Source: Rhodohalobacter sp. 614A (lineage in GTDB: Bacteria > Bacteroidota > Rhodothermia > Balneolales > Balneolaceae). From it: a DNA stretch of 64,000 bases. Position 1 is the first letter of the stretch, and every line of letters begins with the position of its first letter. Under the pieces are notes generated by a model. It searched no databases and was not told where the DNA came from. It worked only from the letters and a program-made list of their open reading frames with translations. The position numbers and the translations under genes were made by a program. This document shows, in pieces, positions 44,630 to 54,087 of this stretch. The stretch is taken from positions 1-64,000 of the forward strand of contig NZ_JAKEDS010000004.1 in the NCBI RefSeq assembly GCF_021462415.1. The letters run 5' to 3'.

Positions 44630-45589
44630 TTACGGCATAGGGAAGAGGCCGGGGGATGGGTCCTTACCTTTAATTTTAGTCATCAAATCATCCAGTTCAT
44701 GTTGATGAATCAGATGGGATTTCGGATTCGGGATTGATTCACGCATCATTCGATATCTTTCAAGATTTCGTTGAAAAAATCCGGACAAAATTTCTGTACT
44801 CTCATCTAAAAATGTTTTTGTAAAAAGAGAATCATCTGCTATGGAAATCCTTGTCCGTAAATAATCGACAATTTCGAATGAATCTCCCAGGAACCAATCA
44901 TTCAGCATATCTGTCAGTTGATCTTTTTTCAGGGATGATTTCTCAGAAACAGGAAAATAAAACCGCATCGGAGTCAGATTTCTACTTAACTGGACCGGAA
45001 GATAATGGGGTGAGACGGATTCATATTCTGCCATCCAAAGTAGTTGGAGCAATGCTCCCAAAGAGGTTCGGACAATTCTGTGGCCTTTAAAACAGCCATA
45101 AATCTTCTTCTCCACATTTTGTTCAAAAGGTGGATGCAGTTCCCGATAAAGTGGTTTATCAGAATCAGGGTAAAGATTACCCGACGGATTCATAGAAAGC
45201 CCAAACGTCAATCCAGATTGATGTTCCTGAATTGTAATGAAATAGTAGGTTTCCGTATGCTTATTGGCATAATTGAATTCCGGACGATGTTCGCGAATCC
45301 AGTAATTTTCGCACAGAATTGCTTCGTGTTCTGACTCCAGGATGTCATATTCAATCCGATGAATCTTGCTGATCATGGCCGCTTCTTTCCGGGAGGTTTT
45401 ACCAGGTTTGGCCCGTTTATAGGAGAATAGCCGCCGTCTGAGATTTTTGGCTTTGCCCACGTACAGAAGCAACTCATTCTCATCATAGAATCGATAAATG
45501 CCAGGCTCCTGCGGAATATCCTCAAAAATTTCTGGTCCTAGTTTTCGCTCCAGGAAAGGAAAGGTGTCAAAAAGGTCAGAAATATGCAT
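44630..45589 (-). CDS. GIY-YIG domain protein (UvrC-N-terminal-like nuclease)
   Basis: 319 residues. The N-terminal GIY-YIG nuclease domain (about 27-115) reads EPGIYRFYDENELLLYVGKAKNLRRRLFSYKR, close to the UvrC/Cho and DNA polymerase III epsilon-linked nucleases. The rest shows no UvrB-binding UVR motif or UvrC endonuclease domain, so it is a stand-alone Cho-like protein. It may incise damaged DNA; the exact role is unknown. Confidence 0.78.
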   Translation of the reverse strand: MHISDLFDTFPFLERKLGPEIFEDIPQEPGIYRFYDENELLLYVGKAKNLRRRLFSYKRAKPGKTSRKEAAMISKIHRIEYDILESEHEAILCENYWIREHRPEFNYANKHTETYYFITIQEHQSGLTFGLSMNPSGNLYPDSDKPLYRELHPPFEQNVEKKIYGCFKGHRIVRTSLGALLQLLWMAEYESVSPHYLPVQLSRNLTPMRFYFPVSEKSSLKKDQLTDMLNDWFLGDSFEIVDYLRTRISIADDSLFTKTFLDESTEILSGFFQRNLERYRMMRESIPNPKSHLIHQHELDDLMTKIKGKDPSPGLFPMP

Positions 45590-49066: not shown

Positions 49067-49248
49067 CTTCGAATACTTAAAGAGTTTGATGAACTTATAG
49101 CCATTTTTGTAAAAAGCGTTCATACAGCAAAAAATAAACAGAAAAGAAATGCGAACAGCTGATTGCAGAATGCAAATTTAAGAAGTGCTTTACATCTGAC
49201 TTTCCCGAGGCCTCGGGATTCGCTAATCCATTGTTCGCAATTCAATCA
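49067..49248 (+). pseudogene. Duplicated tail of the four-helix gene plus GCGAAC repeat, copy 2
   Basis: Direct repeat of 48891-49066. The coding remnant (49067 to about 49162) keeps the frame ...DELIAIFVKSVHTAK but has no start. GCGAAC repeat copy c follows. Here the palindrome CCCGAGGCCTCGGG is present, whereas copy b has CAATT in its place. Confidence 0.7.
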
Positions 49249-49713
49249 GTCTTTCCGAACACGACTTGCCAAGCCCTTAAAAAAATACCGCAGAACCTGG
49301 TCGCCTGCCTTCATGTAATTCGAGTGTTTTTCTTTTTGGAAAAGAGCGTTTACTTCAGACTTCGAAATAGAAAAACCGGTTGATCTCAGAATGTCAAGAA
49401 TATCATCGTCCCGGAGTTTAAAAGCCACCCGGAGTTTTTTCAAAACCATGTTATTGGTGACCGGTGTTCGGATTGGCCGCGGAGGATGCTTATCACTCTT
49501 ACCGCGTTTGTAATAAATCAATCCATCCAGGAAATAAGCCGTTAGCTCGTGTGTGGTATCCACCTTTTGATCCTCGGGAATCGAATCATCAAAAATGTAG
49601 GAGATTTCCTCCCGTTTTGGCTGATAATCAGCCAGTTTCAAAATGTTGGCAATTTCACCTTCGCCTGCATCTAAAATATACCTGATACTTTGAATGATAT
49701 CGTCGTTTCTCAT
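49246..49713 (-). CDS. DUF1456 family protein (YehS-like)
   Basis: 155 residues containing two tandem DUF1456 units: NDDIIQSIRYILDAGEGEIANIL (5-27) and NNMVLKKLRVAFKLRDDDILDIL (88-110), each a small helical domain. Function unknown. The C-terminus overlaps the edge of a GCGAAC repeat. Confidence 0.88.
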   Translation of the reverse strand: MRNDDIIQSIRYILDAGEGEIANILKLADYQPKREEISYIFDDSIPEDQKVDTTHELTAYFLDGLIYYKRGKSDKHPPRPIRTPVTNNMVLKKLRVAFKLRDDDILDILRSTGFSISKSEVNALFQKEKHSNYMKAGDQVLRYFFKGLASRVRKD

Positions 49714-49930
49714 AAAGAGATACTACACTGTTTTAAAAATTATTTTTTTGATTGGATGAAAGGTACGGGAAAGACAGGAGAAATATGAATAACGAACATC
49801 TAAATGCAGAGTTTAGAAGTGCTTTATTTCTGACTCCACTGGATCCCTATTCAAATAATCGTACTTAAAATATCACCATCCTTATTCAAACTTTCCTGAA
49901 ATCATCTTATTTTTCAAGGCTGGTTGATTA

Positions 49931-50293
49931 TTGAAAACCAACCGGAGGGATGGCAGAGTGGACGAATGCGGCGGTCTCGCCCCAAAGGGATCCCTTCGGG
50001 AAAAACCGTCATGGCTTTACAAATGGGAAGTACAAACAAAAAAATACGTTTTGTTTTCTGTATACATTCTTAGGAGCACGAAAACCGGAAACCATTATTA
50101 TGGTCACACAAAAAATCTCGAAAAAAGATTAAAAGCACATAATGATGGAAAAGTACGAAGTACCAAAGCCTACAGGCCGTGGAAAATCATTTACACTGAA
50201 AAATTTTTAACTACATCCGAAGCCTTCAGACGTGAACTCTTCTTCAAATCTATAGAAGGCTATCAATATCTTAAGAAGGAAAAAATTATATGA
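49931..50293 (+). CDS. GIY-YIG nuclease ORF nested in a tRNA-Ser-derived unit, copy 1
   Basis: The catalytic domain starts near residue 40 (VLFSVYILRSTKTG, then HYYGHTKNLEKRL with the YIG-like YYG and Arg) and ends EAFRRELFFKS, including the catalytic Glu. This is a complete single-domain GIY-YIG nuclease of about 80 residues. The first ~35 codons are read through the tRNA-Ser 5' half and the 22-nt palindromic insertion. A TTG at 49931 would give the full ORF; a shorter product from an internal start is possible. The stop overlaps the ATG of copy 2. Confidence 0.75.
   Translation: MKTNRRDGRVDECGGLAPKGSLREKPSWLYKWEVQTKKYVLFSVYILRSTKTGNHYYGHTKNLEKRLKAHNDGKVRSTKAYRPWKIIYTEKFLTTSEAFRRELFFKSIEGYQYLKKEKII
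49944..50001 (+). pseudogene. tRNA-Ser 5' half with interrupted anticodon loop, copy 1
   Basis: 49944-49979 matches the intact tRNA-Ser (50656 on) from the acceptor strand to the anticodon CGA, apart from two D-loop changes. A 22-nt palindrome then interrupts the loop. AAAACCGT resumes, but the T-arm and 3' acceptor strand are missing, replaced by the GIY-YIG ORF. Confidence 0.8.
49980..50001. repeat. 22-nt palindromic micro-element, copy 1
   Basis: Its core CCCAAAGGGATCCCTTCGGG is a near-perfect palindrome. It lies between CTCG and AAAACC of the anticodon loop, interrupting the tRNA exactly there. Confidence 0.7.
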
Positions 50294-50649
50294 ATGCACG
50301 GAGGGATGGCAGAGCGGACGAATGCGGCGGTCTCGCCCCAAAGGGATCCCTTCGGGAAAAACCGTCACGGCTTTATAAATGGGAAGTAGAAACAAAAAAA
50401 TACGTTTTGTTTTCTGTATACATTCTTAGGAGCACGAAAACCGGAAACCATTATTATGGTCACACAAAAAATCTCGAAAAAAGATTAAAAGCACATAATG
50501 ATGGAAAAGTACGAAGTACCAAAGCCTACAGGCCGTGGAAAATCATTTACACTGAAAAATTTTTAACTACATCCGAAGCCTTCAGACGTGAACTCTTCTT
50601 CAAATCTATAGAAGGCTATCAATATCTTAAGAAGGAAAAAATTATATGA
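50290..50649 (+). CDS. GIY-YIG nuclease ORF nested in a tRNA-Ser-derived unit, copy 2
   Basis: Nearly identical to the protein at 49931-50293: the nuclease domain from VLFSVYILRS to SIEGYQYLKKEKII is the same residue for residue. It has an ATG (50290) overlapping the copy 1 stop as ATGA. The N-terminus is again encoded by the tRNA 5' half and the palindrome. It ends 6 bases before the intact tRNA-Ser. Confidence 0.75.
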   Translation: MNARRDGRADECGGLAPKGSLREKPSRLYKWEVETKKYVLFSVYILRSTKTGNHYYGHTKNLEKRLKAHNDGKVRSTKAYRPWKIIYTEKFLTTSEAFRRELFFKSIEGYQYLKKEKII

Positions 50650-50654
50650 ATGCA
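50299..50654 (+). repeat. 356-bp tandem unit 2 (tRNA-Ser half plus GIY-YIG)
   Basis: Second copy of the unit at 49943-50298, directly adjoining it and the intact tRNA-Ser. Its tRNA half spans 50300-50335, with one fewer D-loop difference from the intact tRNA than unit 1. Confidence 0.85.
50336..50357. repeat. 22-nt palindromic micro-element, copy 2
   Basis: Identical to copy 1 and at the same anticodon-loop position of the second tRNA-Ser half. Confidence 0.7.
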
Positions 50655-50655
50655 C

Positions 50656-50744
50656 GGAGGGATGGCAGAGCGGTCGAATGCGGCGGTCTCGAAAACCGTT
50701 GAGGCTTTTTTAAGTCTCCGGGGGTTCGAATCCCCCTCCCTCCG
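50656..50744 (+). tRNA. tRNA-Ser (anticodon CGA)
   Basis: 89 nt with the acceptor stem GGAGGGA/TCCCTCC and discriminator G; D-arm from GCAG; anticodon stem GCGGT/ACCGT around loop CTCGAAA, so the anticodon is CGA (codon UCG); a long class II variable arm (TGAGGCTTTTTTAAGTCTCCG region) and T-arm GGGGG-TTCGAAT-CCCCC. The 3' CCA is not encoded. Two truncated copies with GIY-YIG ORFs lie directly upstream. Confidence 0.93.
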
Positions 50745-50751
50745 CTTCTTT

Positions 50752-50850
50752 AGAAGTCAAAGTTCAGAATGCCCCAAAGGGATGCCTTCGGCACAGATTT
50801 CAGAAGTTTTTTACTTCTGACTTTCCCAAGGCTTCGGGATTCGCTATTCA
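50752..50850. repeat. Dispersed GCGAAC repeat, copy e, carrying a micro-element
   Basis: Degenerate at its 5' end but recognisable: TTCAGAATG and CAGATTTCAGAAG are separated by a 22-nt insertion (50772-50793), then TTTTTTACTTCTGACTTTC and a variant of the CCCGAGGCCTCGGG palindrome. It runs into the end of the DUF1080 gene. Confidence 0.65.
50772..50793. repeat. 22-nt palindromic micro-element, copy 3
   Basis: Differs from the tRNA-borne copies at 2 of 22 positions (13 and 21). The two changes swap one C-G pair to G-C in the small stem TNCC-TTC-GGNA, so the fold is kept. It sits between GAATG and CAGATTT of a GCGAAC repeat whose other copies lack it. Confidence 0.65.
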
Positions 50851-51572
50851 TCAGCACTTAATTCTGTAATTGGCGTCAGCTCCACTTTTCGAAATTCCAC
50901 TTCAGCACCTTCGGCCTGGAGTGCGATGTGTCCGCTTTGGGCAGTCGCATCATAACCAAAATTAACCAGGTCTCCATTCACCCAAACTTTCACAGAGTCG
51001 CCAAGTGTTTCTATGGTCATCTGATTCCATTCTCCCAATGGATGTTCGGAATCATCTGTCAAATTTAAAATGCGCCGGTTCTCTCCTTCACGAATGCCCC
51101 ACTCCTCTTCAGGTCCGCGGCGTTCCACCATATTCGGCACAGTAATATCTTCCACAATCACCCAAAAATCCCCGGCATCACTATGCTGCATTTGTACCTC
51201 GATGGACTGTGGAAACATCTCATAAAGCGCTCTTGGCGTTGAGGCGTGAACAAGTACTCCACAATTCCCTGGTTCTCCCGGAAAACGATACTCCACTTCC
51301 AGCCGGTAATCGGAATATTCCTCGTCTGTAATCAGGTGCCCGCGCGGATCGCCAAGGCTGACCAGCATTCCATTTCGCACAATAAATGCTTCTGTCGTAT
51401 CAGGATTTTCATCCATTGCGGGGACATCCACATGCCAGCCCGTGAGATCTTCGCCATTAAAAAGTTGGATCGTTTCGGATTCCTGGCCGGCCTGAATCTG
51501 GGATTGTGGTTCAGATTGACAAGAAATCAGAGTAAAAAAAAGGAGTGATAAGAGGAATGGAGATTTCGCCAT
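50844..51572 (-). CDS. DUF1080 (3-keto-disaccharide hydrolase-like) lipoprotein
   Basis: 242 residues. A lipoprotein signal (LLFFTLISC) exports it. The DUF1080 lectin-like fold has IQLFNGEDLTGWHVD, YRLEVEYRFPGEPGNCGVLVH and GHIALQAEGAEVEFRKVEL, the family landmarks. Members include 3-keto-glucoside hydrolases. The gene is an ordinary-looking chromosomal gene between the tRNA array and the defence island. Confidence 0.88.
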   Translation of the reverse strand: MAKSPFLLSLLFFTLISCQSEPQSQIQAGQESETIQLFNGEDLTGWHVDVPAMDENPDTTEAFIVRNGMLVSLGDPRGHLITDEEYSDYRLEVEYRFPGEPGNCGVLVHASTPRALYEMFPQSIEVQMQHSDAGDFWVIVEDITVPNMVERRGPEEEWGIREGENRRILNLTDDSEHPLGEWNQMTIETLGDSVKVWVNGDLVNFGYDATAQSGHIALQAEGAEVEFRKVELTPITELSADE

Positions 51573-51936: not shown

Positions 51937-52638
51937 ATGACATTTAAAAGATGGATAAGTATAACGGGGCTCACCGAAGCATCAGCTAAGAAGTACTCAA
52001 GTGCAATATTCGGATCGATTTCAAATTGGGCGAGAGAGGCCGGATTAGTTGATTCCTCTTTACTTGAAATATCCGATCCTGATGAGTTTGAGAGGCTTGC
52101 CGACAAAATTAAACAACTTTCCATTTTTCAGGAACGAAATGATAAAGGAAATAACATGTATAGTAGTGCTCTAAACAAATACCATGAGTACTTAAAAGAT
52201 GACTCCGAGGAATTAGAAAAAGACATCGAGAATATCATTCAGGATGACACTTACACGAATACAGATAAATTAAGGCTTATTAAATCCAGGGTCGGTCAAG
52301 GGGAGTTTAGAAAAAATTTACTTTTATATTGGAAAGGTTGTGCTGTTACAGGTTATAAAACAGGCTCCATGTTAATTGCTTCCCATATAAAACCTTGGAG
52401 AGATTCAAACAATAATGAGAGACTTGATAGTTTTAACGGTTTACTGCTTACTCCAAATCTTGATAAGGCCTTCGATAGGGGTTTTGTAACTTTTGGGACT
52501 AACGGAAAGATTTTAATCTCTGATATTCTCGAAAAACCGGATGTTTTAGGAATTGATGATAATATGAATATTAAGTTGGAATCTGCTCATTTCAAATATT
52601 TAGAATATCATCGAGAGATGGTTTTTTTGAATTTTTAG
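51937..52638 (+). CDS. HNH endonuclease, likely restriction enzyme
   Basis: 233 residues. The C-terminal HNH_2-type domain has the zinc/catalytic landmarks GCAVTGYKTGSMLIASHIKPW, NGLLLTPNLDKAFDRGFV; the catalytic His is in SHIKPW. The N-terminal ~120 residues are helical and probably bind DNA. The gene converges on vsr with a 4-base overlap and lies beside a cytosine methyltransferase, so it is the best candidate for the restriction half of a type II system. AT-rich. Confidence 0.8.
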   Translation: MTFKRWISITGLTEASAKKYSSAIFGSISNWAREAGLVDSSLLEISDPDEFERLADKIKQLSIFQERNDKGNNMYSSALNKYHEYLKDDSEELEKDIENIIQDDTYTNTDKLRLIKSRVGQGEFRKNLLLYWKGCAVTGYKTGSMLIASHIKPWRDSNNNERLDSFNGLLLTPNLDKAFDRGFVTFGTNGKILISDILEKPDVLGIDDNMNIKLESAHFKYLEYHREMVFLNF

Positions 52639-53057
52639 CCGACCCTTTTTATTTCTTGGACTAGTTTTTCCAATCGTTCAAACCGATCCGACTTGTTTTT
52701 TATCTCACATCCCCAAACTGTAAGAACTTGCCAACCTTGTTCTTGAAGAGCTTCTTTATTTTGTTTGTCTCGTTGTTTATTGCCGGTGATTTTCTTTTCC
52801 CAAAATTCTTTTCGCGTTTCAGGCAATGTTCCTCTCTTACAATCGTGGCCGTGCCAAAAGCAACCGTGAACAAAAACAACGACCTTATACTTCGGAAGAA
52901 CGATGTCCGGTGTACCGGGATATCGTTTGTCATTCTTTAAATAGCGAAAGCCTTTTGAGAAAAGATATTTCCGAACAATGATTTCCGGTTTGGTTTCCTT
53001 CCCGGAAATTTTGGACATAATTTTACTTCGCTTTGATTTGCTAAATATATCAGCCAA
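52635..53057 (-). CDS. vsr: Very short patch repair endonuclease
   Basis: 140 residues. Nicks next to T:G mismatches made when 5-methylcytosine deaminates. Signature segments: RSKIMSKISGKETKPEIIVRK, KNDKRYPGTPDIVLPKYKVVVFVHGCFWHGHDC (catalytic Asp and zinc His/Cys) and WQVLTVWGCEIK. It overlaps the end of the methyltransferase gene by 8 bases, the usual dcm-vsr coupling. Confidence 0.94.
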   Translation of the reverse strand: MADIFSKSKRSKIMSKISGKETKPEIIVRKYLFSKGFRYLKNDKRYPGTPDIVLPKYKVVVFVHGCFWHGHDCKRGTLPETRKEFWEKKITGNKQRDKQNKEALQEQGWQVLTVWGCEIKNKSDRFERLEKLVQEIKRVG

Positions 53058-54087
53058 GATGTTGATCCAGATGTTCTTTTATATTCTTAGATTGAACATA
53101 ACTGAAACGTGGCGGCAATGCATTTCCTATTAATAATGCAAGAGAACCTTTAGAAATATCGGTTGGAAATTTGTAATCCTCCGGAAAAGACTGAAGCAAA
53201 GCAGCTTCGCGAGGTGTAATCACACGATCCTGTTCGGGGTGCAAAAAACGGCCTTTGGAAGGATTTAAACACCCACCGGTAATTGTAGTTGAATAATCAT
53301 CCCATCTTAAACGTCCATAAACATCATTAAATCCTATGTTTTTCTTACTGTGGCAATCTAAAAGATATTCATCCGGTAAATCTTTTCGGCTGCCGCCGTC
53401 TTTTGGCGTTAATCGAATTCTCTCCATTATTCTTTCGGTATGATTCGCAACGATTTGTTGTAATGGATCGTCAGACTCTTCAGGTGTTGATAGGTGCTCT
53501 ATCTCACTTCTTACCGTTCTTTTTTCTCCGGTTCCCGGAGCAATTTCTAAATTACCCAGAAGAGAACCCACCATTATCAATCGTTTTCGGTTCTGGGGCA
53601 CACCATAATCTTTAACATTAACAATATCGACTTTAGGGTTGTAGCCCAAATCCTCAAGTTTCTTTACAATCTCTTTGAATAGATAGTAATCTTTTAAACC
53701 CGGCACATTTTCCATCATAATGGTAAGTGGTTTTAGTTCCTTCACCATTCTGAAGTATTCTTCCACCAGGCTATTTCTTTTGTCCCTCACATTGGCTTTT
53801 CTATTCAATTTTCGAACTCTTGAAAAACCTTGACAAGGTGGGCACCCAGCAAGAAGATATAGAGGTCCATCTCTCAAGTGATCTTTTATTTCTTTAACAT
53901 CTATTTCACGGATGTCCTTAGGTATGACTTCCGTATCTGGAAAGTTCATTTTGTAGCCTTTGGCAGCATCTTCTTCAAGTTCAATTGCTATCTTAGTTTT
54001 AAAACCAGCATTATGCATACCAGCAGTAAGTCCACCAACTCCTGAAAATAAATCAATCGAATTATATTTTATTGCTTTATGAGACAA
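53050..54087 (-). CDS. DNA (cytosine-5-)-methyltransferase
   Basis: 345 residues. AdoMet motif DLFSGVGGLTAG near residue 12; catalytic motif IV GCPPCQGFSRVRKLNR with the nucleophile Cys; motif VI MMENVPGL; motif VIII PQNRKRLIMVG; motif IX-X RFLHPEQDRVITPREAALLQSFP and LIGNALPP. It protects host DNA and creates the 5mC that Vsr repairs. The recognition sequence depends on the short target domain (about 215-260) and is unknown. Confidence 0.94.
   Translation of the reverse strand: MSHKAIKYNSIDLFSGVGGLTAGMHNAGFKTKIAIELEEDAAKGYKMNFPDTEVIPKDIREIDVKEIKDHLRDGPLYLLAGCPPCQGFSRVRKLNRKANVRDKRNSLVEEYFRMVKELKPLTIMMENVPGLKDYYLFKEIVKKLEDLGYNPKVDIVNVKDYGVPQNRKRLIMVGSLLGNLEIAPGTGEKRTVRSEIEHLSTPEESDDPLQQIVANHTERIMERIRLTPKDGGSRKDLPDEYLLDCHSKKNIGFNDVYGRLRWDDYSTTITGGCLNPSKGRFLHPEQDRVITPREAALLQSFPEDYKFPTDISKGSLALLIGNALPPRFSYVQSKNIKEHLDQHLG

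Follow-up and report, generated by a model that had tools for sequence, protein, structure and literature searches.

Small GIY-YIG nuclease genes found beside tRNA genes in Bacteroidota and related bacteria probably belong to a selfish cassette, whose sole protein is a minimal Slx1-like nuclease and which spreads into tRNA genes. In the genomes we compared, the cassette has an intact tRNA on one side and a partial copy of it on the other. Some relatives have the cassette at a given tRNA gene, to either side of it, where others do not, and it forms tandem arrays; the partial copy often has a foreign hairpin in, or instead of, one of its tRNA arms. From this anatomy and the allelic presence and absence we infer a nuclease cassette that would spread by recombination through tRNA sequence. 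The case for it draws on adjacency to tRNA genes, a nuclease tree ordered by tRNA type, the partial copies, the syntenic alleles and the arrays, and also on the pairing in the hairpins, the dN/dS ratios and the absence from congeners of both the array and the tRNA at the locus described here.

That locus lies in the window, by which we mean the whole stretch of DNA analysed, 64,000 nt from Rhodohalobacter sp. 614A. It consists of two units in front of an intact tRNA-Ser(CGA), laid out as follows.

49943 to 50298, + strand: unit 1 of the tandem pair (partial tRNA copy, hairpin and nuclease gene), a direct repeat with a spacing of 356
50299 to 50654, + strand: unit 2 of the tandem pair, a direct repeat with 4 differences from unit 1
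49944 to 49979, + strand: partial tRNA-Ser copy 1, tRNA nt 1-36 (repeat family and tRNA alignment)
49980 to 50001, + strand: 22-nt double hairpin in the anticodon loop of copy 1 (repeat and hairpin analysis)
50002 to 50018, + strand: tRNA copy 1 continued, from the 3' anticodon strand into the first part of the variable arm (tRNA alignment)
50051 to 50293, + strand: GIY-YIG nuclease gene 1, 80 aa, likely TTG start, stop included (PF01541; start from the alignment of relatives)
50300 to 50335, + strand: partial tRNA-Ser copy 2, tRNA nt 1-36 (repeat and tRNA alignment)
50336 to 50357, + strand: 22-nt double hairpin in copy 2 (repeat and hairpin analysis)
50358 to 50374, + strand: tRNA copy 2 continued (tRNA alignment)
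50407 to 50649, + strand: GIY-YIG nuclease gene 2, identical in DNA to gene 1
50656 to 50745, + strand: intact tRNA-Ser(CGA) (ARAGORN; Rfam RF00005, 57.2 bits)
50772 to 50793, + strand: one more double hairpin (22 nt, dispersed type) shortly beyond the 3' end of the intact tRNA (pattern match), which may not belong to the cassette
49769 to 50854, no strand: approximate stretch missing from congeners G015 (L212) and G005 (L213) between the same two genes (locus comparison); its edges include dispersed repeats

The two 356-nt units precede the tRNA-Ser without gaps and the DNA of their nuclease genes is exactly the same, both as an earlier reading made from the sequence alone had described. The units are 98.9% identical, and all 4 substitutions between them fall 5' of the nuclease gene. 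Because a repeat of 300 nt is 99% identical and the arrangement recurs across genera, it is not a product of chance. That an assembler made the tandem pair is very improbable. Near-identical short repeats are difficult for assembly, and the contigs of three relatives stop at such a tRNA (L281, L283 and L284), but the window's units differ at 4 places and arrays also occur in single-contig genomes, at 7 of 24 loci. One such array has 5 units about 365 nt apart and two others have 3 units each, at 323 and 317 nt, so tandem arrays such as the window's are found elsewhere too.

The sequence-only reading had each tRNA copy run to the anticodon and then lose its T arm and 3' acceptor half. The T arm is indeed missing, together with the 3' acceptor strand and nothing else; the tRNA sequence does not stop at the anticodon, but resumes beyond a 22-nt insert placed after tRNA nt 36 in the anticodon loop, between CTCG and AAAA, and goes on for about 17 nt. 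With the insert skipped, the two copies match the tRNA at 48 and 49 of its first 53 positions. This foreign hairpin in the displaced tRNA part had escaped the reading. A short spacer then separates the tRNA copy from the 80-aa GIY-YIG protein. In the window the tRNA part can be read through in frame, as had been claimed, but this is no feature of the family: the frame is open in 4 of 17 comparable upstream units, two of the four being the window's own, and we rejected a functional in-frame tRNA–nuclease fusion. The alignment of relatives makes TTG at 50051 and 50407, 3' of the tRNA part, the more likely start of the nuclease. In an Rfam scan of 49700-50900 the intact tRNA alone reached the gathering score and no intron family appeared. 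The 356-nt units contain no integrase; the nuclease is their sole gene content.

The surroundings of the array hold further repeats and nucleases. Dispersed direct repeats flank it on both sides (49812-49866, 50794-50849 and 49203-49218), and a single hairpin, TCCCGAGGCCTCGGGA, breaks one copy of the flanking dispersed repeat, outside any tRNA. At 45272-45505 a GIY-YIG match (48.8 bits) lies within an unrelated larger frame of 320 aa. Just downstream of the array, at 51937-54087, are frames that may form a restriction-modification locus: from their translations we take them to encode an HNH-type protein, a Vsr-like endonuclease and a DNA cytosine methyltransferase.

The nuclease matches PF01541 at 55.3 bits (cut-off 22.6). 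Y13, G26 and E70 are invariant in 30 aligned members, and Y24 and R34 are found in at least 90%. Its 80 residues are wholly catalytic fold, without a separate DNA-binding region (structure model, pLDDT 92.9). The nearest solved structures in a structure search were Slx1–Slx4 and UPF0213, and the I-TevI catalytic domain matched only at E 1.4. I-TevI has a separate DNA-binding region next to its catalytic domain; our protein has none and matches I-TevI only at that level, and we therefore do not class it as an I-TevI-type enzyme. No C-terminal Asn is conserved in the 30 aligned members, and the accessible part of one source describes the Slx1 lineage as lacking a conserved C-terminal Asn too (PMC1564403). 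With its minimal domain, no such Asn and a modelled Slx1-like fold, the protein apparently fits that lineage. The family libraries scanned name it only as a GIY-YIG domain, and the sole NCBIfam match, partial and below the cut-off, was to a model of a group I intron endonuclease, made by 9 of 26 members at E ≤ 0.01. All 7 usable pairs have dN/dS values of 0.05-0.22, which mark purifying selection on the protein. Some copies of the nuclease contain stops.

Sequence comparison places the window locus in a large family of such cassettes, found in Bacteroidota and related bacteria. Related proteins occur in 33 of the 58 genomes searched (the window's genome included), many of them beside tRNA genes. 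We measured this association with a 30-sequence profile, taking all 83 matches in 16 single-contig genomes; the 60 regions examined hold 75 of these, and the 8 left out scored E 1.2e-8 or weaker. A strong family match was one with E ≤ 1e-17, and adjacency meant a same-strand tRNA or tmRNA within 200 nt. The sequence-only reading had staked its claim on an association with tRNA genes, and the association is there: a tRNA or tmRNA adjoins 23 of 24 strong regions against 2 of 36 weaker GIY-YIG regions. Weaker GIY-YIG matches are rarely beside a tRNA and thus serve as an internal control. Locus L228 alone is a strong region without a tRNA, and the two weaker regions beside one (L243 and L249) are both short or broken copies. 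Across the phylum, the best match reached E ≤ 1e-17 in 88 of 198 sampled genomes, a count of match level alone, adjacency being counted elsewhere. Among named records, a Ser-type query yielded 67 loci, from taxa that include Balneolaceae, Rhodohalobacter, Cytophagales, Bacteroidales, Flavobacteriales, Ignavibacteria, Melioribacteraceae and Calditrichia.

The proposal that the element targets tRNA-Ser did not survive this wider view. The family is not Ser-specific and uses tRNAs of 13 amino-acid types as well as a tmRNA. In a quick tree of 134 distinct proteins the neighbouring tRNA is Ser in 57 rows, Met in 15, Gly in 11, Pro and Asn in 10 each, Val in 9, Asp in 7, Leu in 4, Glu in 3, Arg, Ala and Cys in 2 each and Phe in 1, with tmRNA in 1. 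The amino acid of that tRNA changes 24 times on the tree, against a mean of 73.7 when shuffled (0 of 200 shuffles as low), and nuclease lineage tracks tRNA type; Glu, Arg, Ala and Cys, each taken alone, do not cluster. Single forks are weak, as the tree has few columns and includes near-copies. It is made of proteins of at least 68 aa that hit at E 1e-17 or better and have a same-strand tRNA within 400 nt, with identical rows removed. The samples behind the tree, the hairpins and the partial copies are all enriched in Ser because 67 loci came from the Ser-type query, and a locus present in two collections was treated as a duplicate only where its nuclease DNA was identical.

Individual sites add to this picture of tRNA use. 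At L242 (403-1206) a tmRNA gene is followed, at a distance of about 200 nt, by a strong family member on its 3' side; no partial tmRNA copy scored above shuffles within 260 nt, so that this case is one of association only. In the window's own genome, strong copies sit just 3' of tRNA-Val(TAC) (L001, G000:C1:647829) and tRNA-Gly(GCC) (L007, G000:C2:99848), so one genome has cassettes at several tRNA types. Another strong copy in that genome (L005, G000:C1:957201-957440) has a tRNA-Asp remnant (nt 20-75) on each side, and no intact tRNA was found in the 3.2 kb examined. Phages and plasmids were rejected as a source, each having given 1 weak match (67% and 73% of the query covered, respectively). 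In viral contigs, 22 stretches fit the peptide pattern and none was a relative (Ser-type query only), and PHROGs held no relative of the nuclease.

Beyond the nuclease, part of the neighbouring tRNA recurs in 113 of 128 loci with enough flank, as a copy that outscores all 60 letter-shuffles (4 loci were omitted for short flanks), namely 86 of 99 loci with the nuclease 3' of the tRNA and 27 of 29 with it 5'; the remaining 15 have none. Upstream copies typically hold the 5' end of the tRNA and downstream copies its 3' end. Rebuilding or duplication of the 5' half, which the sequence-only reading had proposed, is not specific to the family, since the nuclease is 3' of the tRNA in those 99 loci. 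The local intact tRNA was the best match to the copy in 82 of 104 comparisons, tied in 7 and was beaten in 15, the variation among tRNAs being too small to distinguish donor from host. Empty loci L293 and L290 have the same downstream flank as occupied L295 has after its displaced part. At the single-contig loci with a tRNA or tmRNA (L219 to L243 without L228), 20 of 24 have a copy that scores above 100 shuffles; 11 of these 20 have an insert of at least 8 nt, and 7 of the other 9, judged by eye, a swapped arm. At another locus (L108, 3244-3659) tRNA-Ser T-arm ends recur about every 120 nt downstream of the nuclease, with no nuclease genes between them.

A tRNA copy next to a nuclease gene could also be read as a toxin with its antidote. 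Here the target of the nuclease would be the tRNA or the tRNA gene, and the copy with its hairpin would act as a decoy or antidote RNA. The copy does adjoin the nuclease gene on the same strand, the local tRNA is strictly its best match in 82 of 104, and its anticodon arm is altered in many cases. Yet upstream copies, without a T arm and 3' acceptor half, cannot fold as tRNA, and the nearest solved folds are DNA nucleases; we give this explanation very little credence.

The hairpins follow a strict design. We found 79 inserts inside partial tRNA copies, 56 of them exactly 22 nt long and 4 of 44 nt, mostly in Ser copies and also in those of Glu, Met, Leu, Gly, His and Asn. The 51 inserts in clean register comprise 39 distinct blocks of two 11-nt hairpins, each with a 4-bp stem and a 3-nt loop. 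In these blocks 296 of 312 stem cells are paired, against a mean of 233 and a maximum of 249 in 2000 trials with the 3' arms re-dealt, and both stems are complete in 26 of the 39. The commonest insert points (n=51) are in the anticodon, after TTG or TCG and before AAAA (21), and in the T loop, between TTC and GAAT (17); D-loop-type points (between GTC and GAAT, and similar) account for 7. An unrelated hairpin replaces the anticodon arm, and sometimes the T arm, in other tRNA types. Overall, a foreign stem of at least 5 bp is present in 77 of 113 copies, where shuffled letters give 31.9. Among the 36 copies without one, 25 are Ser, and in 22 of these the stems measure 4, the length seen in the 22-nt double hairpins. 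L099, L104 and L158 have 44-nt inserts, which in L099 and L158 are two double hairpins in tandem.

Hairpins of the 22-nt type are also dispersed: the window's genome has 42 matches, spread over 31 places (reversed control 0), several of them inside other repeats. At least 4 matches occur in 23 of the 88 genomes that have a strong nuclease match and in 1 of the 110 that lack one, a correlation whose Fisher p of 2e-8 is inflated by relatedness. The notion that the 22-nt repeat enters any hairpin apex was rejected: at 22 dispersed sites in the window's genome flank pairing averaged 1.32 against 1.60 when shuffled, and 932 of 1000 shuffles were as high or higher.

These hairpins invite another explanation, in which the hairpin copy, and not the intact tRNA, is the substrate. 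A structure-specific Slx1-like enzyme would open the hairpin-bearing copy in its own unit to give a recombinogenic end with tRNA homology, and the dispersed hairpins would be its non-autonomous relatives, a logic that resembles RAYT/REP. We consider this unlikely. It would explain why the intact tRNA is spared, and it accords with the nearest solved folds (Slx1–Slx4 are nucleases of branched DNA), with the recurrence of hairpins in independent copies with differing sequences and with the excess of 22-nt-type matches in genomes with a strong nuclease. But that correlation is inflated by relatedness, and 65 of the 88 strong-match genomes do not reach 4 pattern matches, although hairpins of other types occur. 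The 30 or so dispersed copies in the window's genome would be equally at risk, and they sit at inverted-repeat apices no more than shuffled flanks do.

Comparison of congeners gave us alleles. Of the 21 genomes of the genus compared with the window's, 17 have a close match to the tRNA, in every case as tRNA-Ser(TGA). At this site 9 loci are empty within the flank examined, a cassette is upstream of the tRNA in L285, L287 and L294 and downstream in L295 and L296, and three contigs end at the tRNA. Relative to reference L293, the upstream gene is kept in 13 of 13 other loci and the downstream gene in 12; with these shared flanking genes, the loci are therefore one site. Strains with and without the cassette, which the sequence-only reading had proposed comparing, thus exist at the same syntenic tRNA within a genus.

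It is improbable, against this background, that the nuclease is a domesticated or neutral gene that serves its host in repair or in changing tRNA copy number, with partial copies and hairpins piling up passively. Slx1 is described, in the accessible part of the source, as keeping rDNA copy number through recombination (PMC1564403), and the nuclease is under purifying selection. But a selfish element accounts better for a cassette that one congener has and another lacks at a single syntenic site, that inserts to either side of a given tRNA, that occupies tRNAs of several types in one genome and that is sometimes found broken. Hairpins also speak against domestication, being more frequent in the copies (77 of 113) than in shuffled letters (31.9).

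The window locus differs from the tRNA-Ser(TGA) site in that the whole tRNA gene belongs to the inserted stretch. Both flanking genes are found in the same order in L212 and L213, with about 105-125 nt between the matches and no tRNA; in L214 to L218 the same two genes are neighbours, one of them inverted, and no tRNA was found. The CGA form occurs in the window's genome only, of 22 same-genus genomes searched with one pattern. As the tRNA is absent from these congeners, either the array arrived with a whole tRNA or a moved tRNA copy changed its anticodon.

How might a selfish cassette of this kind spread? The nuclease would break DNA at or near a tRNA gene, and repair by recombination through tRNA sequence would copy the cassette in. 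A whole tRNA would remain, so that the host survives, and one tRNA part would be pushed outward. Further breaks, with unequal recombination between units, would give rise to arrays. Our first guess for the hairpin, and the least certain of these steps, is that it might destroy the nuclease target in the displaced part.

The weak point of this scheme is self-cutting. A resistant intact tRNA was not supported at tRNA-Ser(TGA), whose loops are alike in empty and occupied congeners; the intact tRNA so keeps the loops that house the hairpins in the copies, and with them the supposed target, and self-cutting must be avoided somehow. Either the enzyme would cut its own allele poorly or the hairpin copy would be the substrate. 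Other observations also count against a selfish cassette: the protein has no DNA-binding domain, and its nearest solved folds are Slx1 rather than I-TevI; 15 of 128 loci have no copy, 36 of 113 copies no foreign stem of at least 5 bp and L228 no tRNA; and in 15 of 104 cases the local tRNA is not the best match to the copy. The hairpin could be a working part of the cassette, an idea we regard as a long shot. The enzyme would then recognise the tRNA-shaped, hairpin-swapped copy, as folded DNA or RNA, and the copy would both mark self and aim or start recombination at the tRNA gene that it matches. If this were true, specificity would come from a tRNA-like nucleic acid and not from a protein DNA-binding domain.

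The selfish cassette shares features with several known systems. Integrative islands use tRNA genes as attachment sites and leave the tRNA whole, as the cassette does; the cassette unit, by contrast, is without an integrase, is about 0.3-0.4 kb long and carries a nuclease only. Short, dispersed double-hairpin elements are known in fungal mitochondria. Ours likewise have two adjacent hairpins and dispersed copies, here inside the loops of tRNA copies, but they are bacterial, 22 nt long and beside a nuclease, and our figures are counts of copies and do not imply mobility.

SegB of T-even phages is a free-standing GIY-YIG homing endonuclease beside tRNA genes, and it drives tandem amplification of a tRNA locus in phage T6 through recombination; other free-standing GIY-YIG enzymes are said to cut their own allele poorly (PMC13096335, accessible part). 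As far as that account goes, SegB and the cassette nucleases are alike in being GIY-YIG enzymes beside tRNA genes, outside introns and linked to tandem amplification; SegB is found in phages, whereas the cassette family is chromosomal, has the catalytic domain only and uses many tRNA types. Like SegB, the cassettes have presence/absence alleles (9 empty, 5 occupied and 3 at contig ends among the 17 congeners), and the window's enzyme is a nuclease domain alone, not inside an intron. Mobile endonuclease ORFs of fungal mitochondria (Allomyces atp6 and Glomus) displace gene ends (PMC3630166, accessible part). There, as here, a nuclease gene separates the complete host gene from a displaced, incomplete copy of its end, but the hosts described are protein genes in mitochondria and the endonucleases are larger; the cassettes use bacterial tRNA genes, at both ends, and have arrays and a hairpin in the displaced part. 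A displaced part disabled by a hairpin is absent from the accessible descriptions of both SegB and the fungal ORFs. Slx1 and the stand-alone Slx1-like proteins of prokaryotes are likewise minimal domains without the conserved C-terminal Asn (PMC1564403, accessible part), and the cassette nucleases differ from them in being tied to tRNA genes, arrayed and allelic.

The cassettes look like an undescribed kind of minimal mobile element: we found no description of them in the titles and abstract starts of the open PMC literature, a body of work that has most subscription papers and bioRxiv outside it. Genes for tRNA are well-known landing sites of large, integrase-driven islands, and a single 80-aa gene appears to do a comparable job in about 0.35 kb. 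The family would tie an apparently Slx1-type nuclease to selfish spread. It raises the question of how a nuclease without a DNA-binding domain stays with one tRNA type, and it offers natural pairs of empty and occupied alleles.
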